From contig NZ_JAIWNS010000180.1 in the NCBI RefSeq assembly GCF_020216685.1, forward strand, positions 1-11,018: DNA of 11,018 nucleotides. Reading direction: 5' to 3'. Of this stretch, positions 5,919 through 11,018 are shown piece by piece (position 1 is the first letter of the stretch; the number at the start of each line of letters is the position of its first letter). Origin of the DNA: Methanospirillum hungatei. Lineage in GTDB: Archaea; Halobacteriota; Methanomicrobia; Methanomicrobiales; Methanospirillaceae. The translations under genes and the position numbers were made by a program. The notes below the pieces were generated by a model. The model was not told where the DNA came from. It did no database searches and saw only the letters and a list, made by a program, of their open reading frames with translations.

Positions 5919-6272
5919 GTGTATGTGAAGAGCATTCAGGAGATTCCTCTCAATAATAGCCGGATAAAAGATGGCATTGAACGGTATCTCACTCTGATAC
6001 AAAAAAAATATGAAGACCGTATAGAGGAAGTTATTCTGTATGGATCAGTTGCACGTTCTGAAAATAATGAAAACTCAGATGTTGATCTCCTGATCATTGG
6101 AACTGAAGATAGCTCTGAAGTAGAGCTTGATATTATTGGAATGAGCTTTGATATATTCATGGAGACCGGAGTAGATATCTCCCCGAAATATCGTTCAAGA
6201 AGGCAATTTGATGAATACTGTTCTTTTTCCTTTCTTCAGAATGTCATTCATGATGGAGTGCGAATTGCCTGA
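5919..6272 (+). CDS. MNT-type nucleotidyltransferase (putative antitoxin of a MNT/HEPN pair)
   Basis: A minimal nucleotidyltransferase of 117 residues. The motif GSVARSENNENSDVDLL gives the G-S (42-43) and the two metal-binding aspartates (D54, D56); D86 (GVDISP) is the likely third acidic residue. In type VII toxin-antitoxin pairs, MNT proteins transfer AMP to a tyrosine of the HEPN partner and silence its RNase. The downstream HEPN reading frame starts 23 bases before this stop, as expected for a co-translated pair. The start is GTG at 5919; no ATG is available, and GTG at 5925 is an alternative. TTTTAAAATTAATTA lies immediately upstream: it may be a TATA element, but it is too close to give a leader to the first GTG, so the true start may be slightly downstream. 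The motif is intact, so the enzyme may still work although its partner is broken. Confidence 0.88.
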   Translation: MYVKSIQEIPLNNSRIKDGIERYLTLIQKKYEDRIEEVILYGSVARSENNENSDVDLLIIGTEDSSEVELDIIGMSFDIFMETGVDISPKYRSRRQFDEYCSFSFLQNVIHDGVRIA

Positions 6273-6649
6273 AAATTGTGAGATCGCTTTTCAGATTTGC
6301 CTCGCAGAAGAACGGTTGAACGAGGCTCAACTTCTTTTTGACGGAAAATTTTTATAGTGGAACCGTAAGCAGAGCATATTATGCCATGTTTGCAGCTACA
6401 AAGGCTGCTCTTCTCTCTAAAAATATTGAGGTAAAAACGCATACAGGGCTTCTCTCAGCTTTTGGTTTGGAGTTCATCCAGACCGGCATAGTTGAGAAAG
6501 AATTTGGTCGTATTCTCAGCCGAGGGGAACACCTGAGAGAGGAGGCTGATTATGGATCGGAAAAAGTTATGAACAGAGATGAGGCAGAAGCCATACTTAA
6601 TTCTTCGAAATCTTTTGTATCGATAGTAAAAGAGTTAATAGAAAAGTAA
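6250..6649 (+). pseudogene. HEPN-domain protein, frameshifted (MNT partner, PF05168/UPF0332-like)
   Basis: Two frames together make one HEPN protein. The first, from ATG at 6250 (or 6253), reads about 34 codons ending NEAQLLFDGKF and stops at TAG 6355-6357. The second, one base forward, continues YSGTVSRAYYAMFAATKA and runs to TAA at 6647-6649. The join falls in the run AAAATTTTT at 6345-6353; removing one T restores a single frame matching the usual opening of this family, where a helix ending in E-A-x-x-L-L is followed by G-x-F-Y-x-x-A-V-S-R-A-Y-Y-A-M-F. TTG at 6338 could start the second frame alone, but that would lose the first helix. The RX6H RNase motif of the family is also altered: Ala stands where His is expected (R-AYYAMF-A). 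Causes could be a real indel, a sequencing error at a homopolymer, or +1 slippage. It is probably inactive as an RNase. Confidence 0.8.
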
Positions 6650-6830: not shown

Positions 6831-6860
6831 AGGCAACACTGCTTTCTATTGGAAATATCT

Positions 6861-7262
6861 ATGCCTGTCCAACCGATACCTGATATGATTCACTCCTGCA
6901 TGGAGATAATACGTGCAACTCCCGTATTTGAAAACATCCGGTTTATTATCCTCTATGGGTCTGTAACAGAAGGAAGAAATGACATTCATTCCGATATTGA
7001 TATTGCCATTTCAACCGACCTTCCCGACCTTGAGGCTGAACGAATGAGAATGCATATCCTTGGAAGGGTTCCGGATATATTTGACATTCACATCTTTGAG
7101 CATCTACCGTTATTTGTTCAGGTAGAGGTCTTTAAGGGAAAGGTTCTCTATGTGGCCGACGAAGATGAACTCTATGATCTGGCTTTGGAGATTTCACGTG
7201 AGTATGAGTTTTTTAAACCTCATTATCTTGATTACATCGGGGAGAGAGAGATATTATCCTGA
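6861..7262 (+). CDS. MntA-like nucleotidyltransferase antitoxin without adjacent HepT
   Basis: The protein has 133 residues from the ATG at 6861. An in-frame TTG 12 bases earlier is possible but less likely. The active site is GSVTEGRNDIHSDIDIAI: G33-S34, D45 and D47, with D75 (FDIHIF) as probable third metal ligand. The C-terminal end (LEISREYEFFKPHYLDYI) resembles MntA antitoxins, which AMPylate the HepT (DUF86) RNase. HepT normally adjoins MntA, but neither flank carries one: upstream is the frameshifted HEPN of a different subfamily, 211 bases away, and downstream is the ATPase gene. It is therefore an orphan antitoxin, a partner to a distant toxin, or a member of the ATPase/TOPRIM block. 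It differs clearly from the nucleotidyltransferase at 5919 outside the motif, so it is not a recent duplicate. Confidence 0.88.
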   Translation: MPVQPIPDMIHSCMEIIRATPVFENIRFIILYGSVTEGRNDIHSDIDIAISTDLPDLEAERMRMHILGRVPDIFDIHIFEHLPLFVQVEVFKGKVLYVADEDELYDLALEISREYEFFKPHYLDYIGEREILS

Positions 7263-7280
7263 AAGCCTCATTTCATAGGA

Positions 7281-7317
7281 AATAAATTATGTAATCTGAA
7301 CCTACTCTATAAGGGGT
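7281..7317 (+). promoter_or_regulatory. Promoter and ribosome-binding site of the ATPase/DUF3226 cassette
   Basis: AATAAATTAT (7281-7290) is a TATA candidate predicting a start near 7311. GGGGT (7313-7317) lies 4 bases before the ATG at 7322 as a Shine-Dalgarno-like element. The 59-base gap after the MntA-like gene would also allow co-transcription with it. Confidence 0.4.
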
Positions 7318-7321
7318 CAAT

Positions 7322-8383
7322 ATGCTCAAAAGCATCACGGTTAAAAATTTTCGGGGGTTCCAAAATGTTCATTGTAATAACCTTTCACTGATAAATTTGG
7401 TTGTTGGGAAAAATAACGTTGGAAAAACAGCTTTCCTCGAAGCATTATTTTTGTTTTTCGGCAGACAAAACCCCGGACTTGCTATGCATATAAATGCATC
7501 ACGGGGTCTTGGATCTGTTAAAATTGGTTCAGGTTCTGTGATGGAGAGTCCCTGGAATTCAATTTTCTATAATTTTGATATAACTAACCCTATCACGATT
7601 ACCTGTCAGGACGAACACGATACTTTGTATCTCCATATCTCTCTCAATACCTCATTAGATATGAATGATATCAGGGATACCTATTCTGAATCTGAAAGGA
7701 TATTAAAAATTAAAGACTCCGGATTTGTTCATGTATTAAACGTTACAAGTAGTGATGAAAAAGAACCATATCAATTACTGCTGACAAACCAGGGCTTGAG
7801 AGTGAACAGAATCGGAATATCAAAAACAATAGCATATTATCTACACTCCCGGGGAATTTTTGACTCTAAAGAAAGGGCAGAATTGTTTACCTCTCTAGAT
7901 GCAACCGGAAGAACTGATGAGATTGTGAAAGCAATACAGTATATAGAACCACGTCTGAAAAGACTAAGTATTGGGATAATTGCGGATGAACCAATTATTT
8001 TAGGTGATATTGGTGCTGCAAGGCTCATTCCCTTATCTTTGATGGGAGATGGTACTGTCCGTTTGTTTGATCTCCTTATCCGGATAATGAATGCACAAAA
8101 TGGAGCCGTAATAATCGATGAGATTGAAAATGGAATACATCATTCAGTTCAGGAAAAGATCTGGACGGTAATCGGCACCTGTGCGAAAAGGTATAATGTT
8201 CAGATTTTCGCATCTACTCATAGTCTGGAATGTATAAAAAATGCATTTGCAGCTTTTTCCACCTTTCATGATCAGATATTTCATGTTCAAAGAATTGAGA
8301 GGGCAGGAGAAGACATTCGGATAAAATCATTTGATATGGCAAAATTAGAAACAATATTTGATCTGAATCTTGAGGTCCGATAA
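7322..8383 (+). CDS. ABC/SMC-type AAA ATPase (OLD-family-like), first gene of a two-gene cassette
   Basis: A 353-residue ATPase. The N-terminal strand MLKSITVKNFRGFQNV and Walker A GKNNVGKT (29-36) are typical of the OLD/RecF/SMC-like group (AAA_15/AAA_21). Conserved C-terminal elements follow: a signature-like SLMGDGTVRL (239-248), Walker B GAVIIDEIENGIH (261-273, D266 and E267) and a switch histidine in ASTHS (H300). The insert between about 65 and 235 is the variable part. There is no TOPRIM domain at the C-terminus, unlike fused OLD or GajA proteins. The TOPRIM-like activity lies instead in the next gene, whose ATG overlaps this stop (TAATG). It probably dimerises, binds ATP, and senses DNA or a phage signal to gate the partner; that role is inferred from OLD and PARIS (AriA) analogues. 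Confidence 0.9.
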   Translation: MLKSITVKNFRGFQNVHCNNLSLINLVVGKNNVGKTAFLEALFLFFGRQNPGLAMHINASRGLGSVKIGSGSVMESPWNSIFYNFDITNPITITCQDEHDTLYLHISLNTSLDMNDIRDTYSESERILKIKDSGFVHVLNVTSSDEKEPYQLLLTNQGLRVNRIGISKTIAYYLHSRGIFDSKERAELFTSLDATGRTDEIVKAIQYIEPRLKRLSIGIIADEPIILGDIGAARLIPLSLMGDGTVRLFDLLIRIMNAQNGAVIIDEIENGIHHSVQEKIWTVIGTCAKRYNVQIFASTHSLECIKNAFAAFSTFHDQIFHVQRIERAGEDIRIKSFDMAKLETIFDLNLEVR

Positions 8384-9072
8384 TGGGGGGAGATAGCCCA
8401 AATATTTTTGAAAGGATAGAAATTACGCATCCATACCTGTTGATTGTTGAAGGGAAAGATGAGGTAGAGTTTTTTAAGGCATTTTTTCAATTCTTAAAGA
8501 AGTCATCATATGAGTGGGATGGATTGAATGACATTCAGATCATATCTACAGATAGTAAAGATAAATTGCCAAAACTTTTAGAGATTGTACCTGATTTAGT
8601 AAATAGCGACCAAATCAAAAGAATAGCAATTATTCAGGATGCAGATAATGATCAGAATCGCTCTTTTCAACAGATCCAAAAAATTCTTACTAAAATAGGA
8701 TTTCCTGTTCCTGAATGCCAAATTGAACCCAAAATAGGAAAAATAAATGTGAACCAAGTGATTTCTGTTCAGGTTCTCATAATTAGTGTTGATGGAAAAG
8801 GGATGCTGGAAGATATCTGTCTTGATTCTGTATCTGATGATTGTGCTATGCCATGCGTTGAATCTTTTTTCAATTGTTTATCAAAGTTTTATTTAACCTC
8901 AGAGTTAATCCCTCCAAAAAACCTTTCGAAAGCGAAAACCCGTGTATTCTTAGCGTCAAGAAAAGAATGTACCTTATATATTGGTCTTGCCGCTAAAGAA
9001 GGGTATTGGAACTTTGAAAAACCTTCATTTGACAAAATGAAGGAGTTATTACAGGTATTAATTATGAATTAA
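8383..9072 (+). CDS. DUF3226-like TOPRIM-fold protein, partner of the ATPase
   Basis: The protein has 229 residues. TOPRIM hallmarks are an N-terminal strand ending in a glutamate (LLIVEGKDEVEFF, E23) and an acidic D-x-D cluster after a hydrophobic strand (IAIIQDADND; D86, D88, D90). A later GKGMLEDIC stretch (138-146) and the C-terminal AAKEGYWNFEKPSFDKM (203-219) match DUF3226 as I know it. TOPRIM proteins use these acids with magnesium to cut or join DNA, so a nuclease effector is plausible. The start codon overlaps the ATPase stop by one base (TAATG), and GAGGT lies 6 bases upstream, so translation is probably coupled with near-equal output. PARIS AriB is the closest functional analogue but belongs to DUF4435. 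There is no signal peptide or membrane segment. The TOPRIM call is fairly firm; function is unproven. Confidence 0.85.
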   Translation: MGGDSPNIFERIEITHPYLLIVEGKDEVEFFKAFFQFLKKSSYEWDGLNDIQIISTDSKDKLPKLLEIVPDLVNSDQIKRIAIIQDADNDQNRSFQQIQKILTKIGFPVPECQIEPKIGKINVNQVISVQVLIISVDGKGMLEDICLDSVSDDCAMPCVESFFNCLSKFYLTSELIPPKNLSKAKTRVFLASRKECTLYIGLAAKEGYWNFEKPSFDKMKELLQVLIMN

Positions 9073-9221
9073 TGAGATACGCTCTTTAAAGAAAATCTCC
9101 ACTGAACATTCATGGTTTCATTACTTTGGTATAATGAAATAATATTTCGAACGCATTACATAGGTATACGAAATAATAAAATTTTAGTATTAAAAGGCCT
9201 TAAGGATAAAAAAACTAAATA
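9073..9221. other. AT-rich convergent intergenic region
   Basis: No coding frame is visible in these 149 bases between two convergent genes. GAAATAATA occurs twice (9136-9144 and 9170-9178). Overlapping palindromes AAGGCCTT (9194-9201) and CCTTAAGG (9198-9205) lie next to the T-run that serves the minus-strand gene. The stretch is distinctly AT-richer than the chemoreceptor region. Confidence 0.5.
9208..9214 (-). terminator. Oligo-T terminator after the second DUF4143 ATPase
   Basis: A7 on the plus strand reads as T7 on the minus strand, 7 bases after the stop at 9222-9224 that ends the original full-length frame. Its placement supports that stop, rather than the internal TAG, as the ancestral gene end. 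Confidence 0.45.
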
Positions 9222-10568
9222 TTATAGACAATTCTCACCCCCCCCCTCTAATACTGCCCTATCCTGACTCACAAACCCAAGTACATACTCAACAATCGGG
9301 ACTATCCGGATCTCAACCTCATCTTCCTTTATGATCCGATCTGTCTGCTCAGTGATGATATACCCGATAACCAGGTTAAAAGCTTTACATGCAGAAACCA
9401 GGCCTCCTATCTCCCCTGTCAGGTTCTGTTCGGTCAGGTGATAGCAGACCTGAATTGCGTTCGTGACTCTGGTCCCCTCCTACACAATAAAATCACATTC
9501 ATGAGTAGCATCACGAAAGAAAAAAATCTCTCTCCCTTCTCTGATGAGTGCATTACATACGACATTCTCATACAATCTTCCAATTTTCTCCGAAAAAGAA
9601 ACTGAATATACAAATCCGGTATCAAGGGTATAAAATTTAATATCCGACACCAGTTGTTTCTTTAGAGAATAATGAAAATTTCTGACTTCAAAGAAGAAAT
9701 ACACCTGTTTCAGATAATCAATGTAGTCATGTGTTGTTTCATAACTTATTGCTAGAGCCTTGCTGATGCTGTGGATATTATTCTGCTTTGTATCATTCGT
9801 GAGAAGATATTCAACGAATGTGAGCAGGATATCATAATTACGCAGTTTATATCTCCCCATGATATCTCTGAGTAATATCGTATGAAAATATGACAATAAC
9901 TCTTCCTTTTTCAGGTCTTCTTCAAGCATTGTTACCTTGGGAAAACCACCCCAGGTCAGGTATCCGGTAAACAAACGGTTAATCATCGTTCGGTTTGTGG
10001 TATACCCATTGATACTGATGCATGATATGTCGTGAAAGAGCAGAAACTCCCAAAATGTTAATGGATACACGTCAATATTGAGATATCGCCCACTGATGGA
10101 TGAGGCAATCTCACCGGAAAGGAGTGCGGGTGATGATCCGGTCAGATATATTCTGGCCTTTTGCAATTCATAGGTCGTTACAACCCACTTTTCCCAGGAT
10201 TGGACATTCTGCACTTCATCAAGGAACAGAAACACTTCCTTATCCGGATTGATATTCTCCCGGTATGTTGCAAGAATCTGGTCAAGTATTGAAGAATCCA
10301 TCGCTGGTGGGAATCGCGGGTCCTCAAAATTGATGTACAGAAGCTGGATCTTGTCATGGTCTCTGGCAAGATTCTCCATCTCCTGTTTGAGGAGTGTTGA
10401 TTTTCCACTTCTCCTCATGCCGGTCAGCACAATGATCTCATCAGACCTTCGCAGCCGCTGCATCTTCTCCTGATATTCAGGCCGGGGTTTAACCTTTGGA
10501 AAATCCTTGTACCAGTAATTCCAGTCATGGAGAATTGCCCTGATCCCAAGTTTTAAGAGAGCCTGCAT
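9222..10568 (-). pseudogene. AAA ATPase with DUF4143 domain, interrupted by an in-frame TAG
   Basis: From ATG 10568 the frame encodes 362 residues, then TAG (9480-9482), then 85 more sense codons in the same frame before TAA at 9222-9224. The ATPase part is intact: Walker A GMRRSGKST (50-58), Walker B FLFLDE (113-118) and TGSSPALL (143-150). The stop falls right after HECDFIV; beyond it the frame reads EGTRVTNAIQVCYHLTEQN, matching KEKTKVTKAIQVCYEVTSRN in the intact paralogue at 807-2045. Lys in the paralogue is replaced by the amber codon, so a point mutation (from CAG or AAG, for example) is the simplest cause. The product would keep its ATPase but lose the end of the nuclease-like domain. 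A C9 run at 9238-9246 lies near the end without breaking the frame. AGGAG lies 3 bases before the ATG. Pyrrolysine readthrough is possible in some methanogens but not expected in this lineage. Confidence 0.88.
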
Positions 10569-10643: not shown

Positions 10644-10811
10644 TTGAAGTTAATATGGGCGTCCGGGCCTCATTTTCTGAAGGTTTCAAGGTATTTATTG
10701 GGAACTTACTCTCTGCTTGTATGTCATTTCGGTGAAATCAGGAGATGAGGATAGGAAAAAAATTGAGAAATGGTATGGTATTATTGAGGGTTTTGTCAGC
10801 TGATAATAGAC
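10644..10811. other. Intergenic, no gene seen; minus-strand T-run
   Basis: No convincing coding frame in about 168 bases. A 27-codon plus-strand frame from ATG 10745 has its AGGAG directly against the start and resembles nothing known. The A7 run at 10756-10762 is a T7 terminator candidate for the minus-strand gene ending at 10812. Confidence 0.5.
10756..10762 (-). terminator. Oligo-T terminator of the right-edge gene
   Basis: Seven T on the minus strand, about 50 bases after the stop of the partial gene at 10812. No clear stem precedes it, consistent with archaeal T-run termination. Confidence 0.35.
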
Positions 10812-11018
10812 TTATATCAGAGATCTGATCTCTTCCTCCGGCATCCCGGTAATCTTTGCTATCTCGGCAACTGACATCCCTGCTTTTTTCATCCGCTCCA
10901 GAATTAATGCCATCCCTTCAATTCTCCCTTCCGCTTTACCTTCAGCCTTATATGCTGCAATCCATTTATCTACTTTTTCAGCTAACATGGTCCCTCCAAC
11001 AAACGGGTTAGGTATAGG
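10812..11018 (-). CDS. C-terminal end of an Rpn/PD-(D/E)XK transposase-like protein (5' end outside window)
   Basis: The frame is open from the right edge to TAA at 10812-10814, giving 68 residues. The visible end reads VDKWIAAYKAEGKAEGRIEG, then an amphipathic helix (MALILERMKKAG) and an HTH-like close (MSVAEIAKITGMPEEEIRSLI). Repeated x-EG units followed by an AEIAxxTGxxxEEI end are typical of the tails of Rpn-family recombination-promoting nuclease/putative transposase proteins, in my recollection. The nuclease domain is not in the window, so the assignment rests on the tail alone. ATG at 10988 with GGAGG just upstream could instead start a 58-residue protein; I prefer the partial reading because ten upstream codons stay open in frame. 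Confidence 0.6.
   Translation of the reverse strand, partial: PIPNPFVGGTMLAEKVDKWIAAYKAEGKAEGRIEGMALILERMKKAGMSVAEIAKITGMPEEEIRSLI

Follow-up and report, generated by a model that had tools for sequence, protein, structure and literature searches.

The gene pair and its sequence features

The analysed stretch of Methanospirillum hungatei DNA (contig NZ_JAIWNS010000180.1, 11,018 nucleotides; hereafter, the window) contains two adjacent genes at positions 7322–9072, encoding an OLD/Rad50-type ABC ATPase (designated A) and a DUF3226 TOPRIM nuclease-like protein (designated B). The pair is considered here as a candidate defence module in which the two activities of OLD proteins are split between separate genes. 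Its features are as follows.

7322..8383, forward strand: gene A, an OLD/Rad50-type ABC ATPase without a TOPRIM domain, 353 amino acids; Walker A at residues 29–36, signature region G242-D-G244, Walker B at D266-E267, H300, and a conserved C-terminal E351-x-R353
8383..9072, forward strand: gene B, a DUF3226 TOPRIM nuclease-like protein, 229 amino acids; active site predicted at E23, E27, D86, D88, E143, and K183
8381..8385, forward strand: TAATG, read from the sequence, with one base common to the stop codon of A and the start codon of B

Pfam matches of A include AAA_15 (82.9 bits) and AAA_21 (75 bits), with no TOPRIM family up to E 1; B scores 97.1 bits with DUF3226, against a cut-off of 27, and 22.5 bits with OLD-like_TOPRIM, just under the cut-off of 23.2. 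The coordinates and matches bear out the original prediction, made from the sequence letters, of an OLD-type ATPase without TOPRIM at 7322–8383 followed, with a TAATG overlap, by a DUF3226 gene; translation of A and B would be expected to be coupled through this overlap. No long open reading frame (ORF) follows B on its strand within the window, and the GC content of the pair is 35.4% versus 42.2% for the window. A scan for promoters (of the bacterial type) and terminators found 9 and 1 sites, respectively, where shuffled sequences would be expected to yield 9.7 and 1.2.

Predicted folds and active-site residues

B is confidently modelled as an OLD-type TOPRIM domain, which clearly passes the test of whether the second protein models as TOPRIM, the predicted structure having a TOPRIM fold with an OLD-like helical extension; the modelled fold of A lies close to the heads of SMC and Rad50. 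Foldseek by itself gave no match at E ≤ 0.001, and a sequence search of B alone against the PDB gave two matches, the best with an E value of only 0.47.

In an alignment of 80 rows, the residues of B that are kept follow the order of the OLD two-metal centre, a mapping that relies on order and spacing, not superposition. Metal A in the Burkholderia pseudomallei OLD protein is described as bound by E400, D455, and D457, and metal B by E508, E404, and T506, with K562 as catalytic lysine (PMC6755086). In B, E23 is glutamate in 78 of 80 rows, D86 is invariant (80/80), and D88 is aspartate in 62 and glutamate in 14 (acidic in 76); E27, four residues past E23 as in the E400/E404 spacing, is acidic in 77/80, E143 (placed at a helix start in the model) is found in 80/80, and K183 is lysine in 79/80. 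The acidic cluster originally proposed, E23 with D86, D88, and D90, therefore stands in its first three members; D90 is aspartate in only 32/80 rows and was rejected as a conserved acidic position. D144 is also invariant (80/80), and three cysteines, C146, C158, and C165, are kept in 80, 76, and 75 of the 80 rows. These cysteines, D144, E27, E143, and K183 are additions to the residues named in the original prediction.

Among 55 sequences of A, residues G29, N31, G34, K35, D266, E267, Q294, H300, and S301 are invariant (55/55), and the last residues, E351 and R353, are kept in 54, the remaining row being a gap. Because the motif residues are kept in A and B alike, both window proteins look intact.

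Conservation of the pair as one unit

Relatives of B were collected from an alignment of 20 B sequences (the window included), giving 66 loci in genome contigs that were picked by one peptide pattern and are not a random sample. Hosts include Chloroflexota, Bacteroidota, Planctomycetota, Desulfofundulus, cyanobacteria, Treponema, Methanosarcinales, and others. In all 62 loci with room upstream (in the other four, L005, L031, L032, and L067, B lies at the contig start), phmmer at E ≤ 1e-3 finds a relative of A ahead of B in the same orientation, so the test of whether homologues adjoin one another came out in favour of the pair. With start codons, and hence gaps, set by script, the A-B gap is −20 to +2 nucleotides in 58 of the 62 loci and 34–189 nucleotides in the other four; the genes overlap in 48. 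Interrupted or partial A genes occur in L017, L020, L039, L046, and others at contig edges, and L035 and L036 are near-duplicates.

Because these loci had been picked by a peptide pattern, the DUF3226 Pfam model was also run over 392 genomes of the window's phylum. Matches were found in 17 (the source genome included), 14 of them over the cut-off; of these 14, A lies directly upstream in 11, one is cut by a contig end, and two encode single-chain ATPase-TOPRIM proteins. Among the 11, one is cut at a contig edge so that just the end of A is visible (G389), one has A in two pieces (G158), and one has B interrupted by a stop (G251). The three genomes below the cut-off have an ATPase relative upstream as well. 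Distances among A proteins correlate with those among their B partners (Mantel r 0.78 for 54 pairs and 0.66 for 46 non-redundant pairs; 0 of 5000 shuffles as high), a correlation to which shared host ancestry may add. The pair recurs across phyla far more than chance would allow.

Six farther A relatives in the same phylum (L096, L097, L098, L099, L100, and L102) are each followed by a small protein with a TOPRIM-like motif, beginning "CEG" or "TEG" plus a D motif by our own reading; none of the small proteins matches the DUF3226 profile at E 1. The DUF3226 pair thus seems to belong, as one branch, to a broad group of split-OLD systems.

Relation to described systems

The closest counterpart is PDC-M38 in PADLOC-DB 2.0.0, both components of which match A and B, adjacent and in the same order, with no difference seen. 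A matches PDC-M38A (PDLC04611) at 4e-61 and 205.6 bits, residues 1–353 on 1–383 of 383, and B matches PDC-M38B (PDLC04623) at 5.2e-13 and 47.2 bits, residues 19–223 on 5–214 of 219; the A values are given without PADLOC's own cut-offs. Four other A-B pairs also match the PDC-M38 models, their B proteins scoring 31–50 bits in the best model. PDC stands for "phage defence candidate" in the paper that uses the term (PMC11514479). The words DUF3226 and PDC-M38 occurred in no paper found by a literature search that covered no bioRxiv papers and few subscription journals. The pair is thus not new as a database entry, and no study of it was found; the novelty first ascribed to the arrangement does not hold, since PADLOC has PDC-M38A/B and AbiL is an older split ATPase/TOPRIM pair.

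AbiL shares the two-gene ATPase/TOPRIM logic, and the best PADLOC match of A is an AbiLi model (PDLC02336, 214.1 bits, full length), which also ranks top for A in three of the four other pairs that match PDC-M38; the other AbiLi model, PDLC02335, gives only 59.2 bits. AbiL differs in its second gene, described as RloB-like (PMC10440598): searches with B up to E 1 gave neither AbiLii nor RloB, and the hhalign probability of B against an RloB protein from another genome (G037) is 0.2. The AbiLi protein of that genome, which is encoded beside an A-B pair, matches PDLC02335 at 291 bits, not the model that ranks top for A. PARIS is defined with DUF4435 (PMC9122126) and is presented in a review as a proposed fourth OLD class with the two domains on separate genes (PMC10568477). 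B differs in belonging to DUF3226: DUF4435 is missing from its Pfam matches at E values up to 1, and its E value against the AriB model is only 0.0065. PARIS, which consists of the AriA ATPase and AriB, is further characterised by Ocr-type phage proteins as its trigger and by tRNA cleavage by AriB. Membership in PARIS and in AbiL was rejected because the second-gene families that these systems require are absent here. The description originally given, PARIS logic with a different effector family, fits the sequence evidence of an ATPase and a predicted DUF3226 TOPRIM protein on separate genes.

OLD classes 1 and 2 (TsOLD and GajA) resemble the pair in ATPase group, TOPRIM type, and order of catalytic residues; they are single polypeptides, whereas A and B are two ORFs. 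A further related entry, PH0156 (PDB 2p62), is a structure titled hypothetical protein.

Mobility and the hepT site

The pair is a mobile unit. Its presence is patchy: 3 of 61 relatives have a DUF3226 match, as do the 17 of 392 phylum genomes noted above, the source genome included. One congener (G010) has a pair 67% identical over window positions 7344–9038, beyond which blastn finds nothing shared by the window and the 19.9 kb surrounding that pair. In another genome (G090), the pair adjoins a gene that resembles a transposase and has an integrase core. A second congener (G003) has the site recognisable on both flanks and lacks the pair, likeness ending at window position 7257, the end of an mntA-like gene, and restarting at 9274. 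Two further features are defined by this comparison.

6849..7262, forward strand: MntA-like nucleotidyltransferase gene, a neighbour outside the unit (NCBIfam MntA, 50.5 bits, below the cut-off of 60)
7258..9273: segment that holds the pair and short spacers; the syntenic site in G003 lacks it and has hepT and a short spacer instead

The window's MntA-like protein has 89% amino acid identity over 136 residues to that of G003, in which a 149-amino-acid gene with a Pfam HepT-like match (1.4e-24) follows and overlaps the mntA end. With the HepT of G003 as the query, tblastn gave no match to the window, and a MntA-HepT type VII toxin-antitoxin system, whose arrangement of hepT next to mntA is seen in G003 and G009, was rejected at the window site. 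Because the flanks match G003 up to 7257 and from 9274, with hepT between them, the pair occupies the exact place of hepT. Compared as gene order, not as syntenic sites, mntA is followed by hepT in G009 and by a partial hepT in G010; the arrangement in G009 favours, without proving, hepT as the older state of the site. A literature search on MntA/HepT exchange gave nothing relevant among its best matches.

Relatives of B are also found on Klebsiella plasmids (103 records). With a Klebsiella B protein as the query, 144 plasmid records were matched (138 Klebsiella, 4 Escherichia, 1 Raoultella, and 1 Salmonella); among the matches listed, most plasmids are about 4.2 kb and a few are 7.8–12.5 kb. 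A 4167-bp Klebsiella plasmid of ColRNAI type carries four genes (a helix-turn-helix gene, a Rop-family gene, the ATPase, and DUF3226), and a 3843-bp plasmid carries the same set plus one hypothetical gene; the pair is the main cargo of both. No paper on the 4167-bp plasmid was found by a literature search. In Escherichia coli, matches occur in 9 of 5426 genomes, on plasmids only (4693 or 3795 bp). A search of a phage collection gave no match, and eight pattern matches in viral contigs included none confirmed as a relative.

Neighbouring genes and defence context

In one genome (G037; L104, 6397–10213) the pair lies back to back with AbiLi and AbiLii/RloB, so that two kinds of split ATPase/TOPRIM system adjoin; Vsr, a cytosine methylase, and an AIPR protein are also encoded within about 10 kb. 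For a wider comparison, 150 genes drawn at random from 208 near the pairs (the three longest dropped, leaving 147) and 150 of 176 far-end genes, all from greedy ORF calls, were scanned with PADLOC models at 1e-10. The near genes match 201 families, the best 25 of which include MADS, AriA, type IIG restriction, methylase, DISARM, and BREX models; the far genes match 51, the best 25 including Csx1, AbiLii, and MADS models. This difference shows a trend only, because the count is of families, not proteins, and the near set has the greater total gene length.

The window also contains MNT and HEPN genes, as the original prediction stated in placing the pair in a block of such genes, and the block does not extend to a lasting link. 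With the MNT and HEPN proteins of the window as queries, phmmer gave matches in only 2 of 78 loci, both more than 5 kb from the pair, so these genes were placed outside the unit and rejected as parts of the system; single-sequence phmmer can miss distant relatives.

Several features were seen elsewhere in the window. At 6241–6649, a HEPN gene after the first MNT gene seems split by a frame change, its N-terminal piece stopping at about 6357 and the rest lying in another frame; blastn found no match to this region between the two MNT genes of G003. On the minus strand at 9480–10568, an AAA_14/DUF4143 gene stops inside DUF4143 (profile position 145 of 160), and the G003 counterpart of this region consists of two shorter ORFs. 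The right edge (10786–11018) recurs at least twice more nearby in G003 (L125), in ORFs with similar starts.

Proposed function and alternatives

The conserved two-gene unit with its correlated distances and intact motifs, its mobility, some of its neighbours, and both modelled folds point to a self-contained, horizontally moving split-OLD defence module, a reading that we hold to be reasonably probable: A would be sensor and restrainer, B a two-metal nuclease, and the infected cell would be arrested. The pair is most likely antiviral, probably an abortive-infection module; defence activity, substrate, and trigger are inferred from related systems. The enrichment near defence genes that was expected of such a module is seen in the G037 island and in the near/far trend, and ordinary neighbours elsewhere weigh against it, among them a thymidylate synthase match in the gene after the pair in G090 and a lyase before the pair in G208; this test came out less clean than the others.

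In PARIS, the ATPase is reported to hold the TOPRIM nuclease and to free it on sensing a phage protein, the nuclease then cutting tRNA (PMC12409363), and in related pairs an AAA protein is described as neutralising a toxic TOPRIM_OLD protein (PMC10440598). On this analogy A would restrain and sense, and B would cut. In the uninfected cell, A would bind and restrain B in a physical complex; infection would change the ATPase state of A, the putative sensor, and B would thereby be freed or activated. B may then cut nucleic acid, either DNA or tRNA, by two-metal chemistry through E23, E27, D86, D88, and E143 with K183 as catalytic lysine, and the infected cell would stop growing before virus release.

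It is also conceivable, though unlikely, that B acts as a toxin and A as its antitoxin, in a toxin-antitoxin or plasmid-addiction module that maintains mobile DNA and has no real antiviral role. The pair's standing as the main cargo of two plasmids of about 4 kb, its location in the place of a hepT gene, and the neutralisation of TOPRIM_OLD toxins by AAA proteins in the tested pairs described would all agree with this; however, AbiL and PARIS, which have the same two-gene ATPase/TOPRIM logic, are described as acting on phages, one copy of the pair sits in a dense defence island, and deletion of either PARIS gene is reported to be non-toxic and to abolish defence (PMC9122126). A housekeeping role, in DNA repair of the Rad50-Mre11 kind or in cell-cycle control as for the archaeal OLD-family protein Cran1, is more improbable still: the modelled likeness of A to SMC and Rad50 heads and the account of Cran1, whose role is apparently essential and apparently non-antiviral, speak for it, but the pair is patchy in its presence, moves between sites, and is plasmid-borne in enterobacteria.

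MntA modifies HepT, and the upstream mntA-like gene might by the same token be a third component that modifies, for example, A or B. Its reading frame is uninterrupted and ends 59 bases ahead of the pair, with which it shares its strand; the pair follows it where hepT would be, and one Desulfofundulus pair has a Polbeta-family gene just downstream. Yet the sparse and distant MNT/HEPN matches described above, the absence of any such annotated gene from the two plasmids examined, and the 15 places in the source genome that match this nucleotidyltransferase family make the proposal highly improbable.

Within the defence reading, a more specific and rather doubtful proposal is that DUF3226 pairs form an independent split-OLD class, with a G-x-L-E-D-x-C ... 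C-x6-C ... K signature. The three near-invariant cysteines of B are predicted to lie on two helices just behind the catalytic glutamate. If the proposal is true, B would be a nuclease gated through them by metal or redox state, the nearly invariant C-terminal E-x-R tail of A would hold B, and the pair would move between hosts on tiny plasmids as stand-alone immunity cargo.

The swap between hepT and the pair in a methanogen genus is a well-resolved case of a single site at which one conflict module has been exchanged for another, and it leaves an antitoxin-like gene partnerless. OLD-type ATPase/TOPRIM systems are described as recurring in Gabija, retrons, PARIS, and AbiL (PMC10568477, PMC12409363, PMC10440598), and relatives without a tested role are many; because this pair occurs in many phyla and on small, handy plasmids, a test of its role would take little effort.
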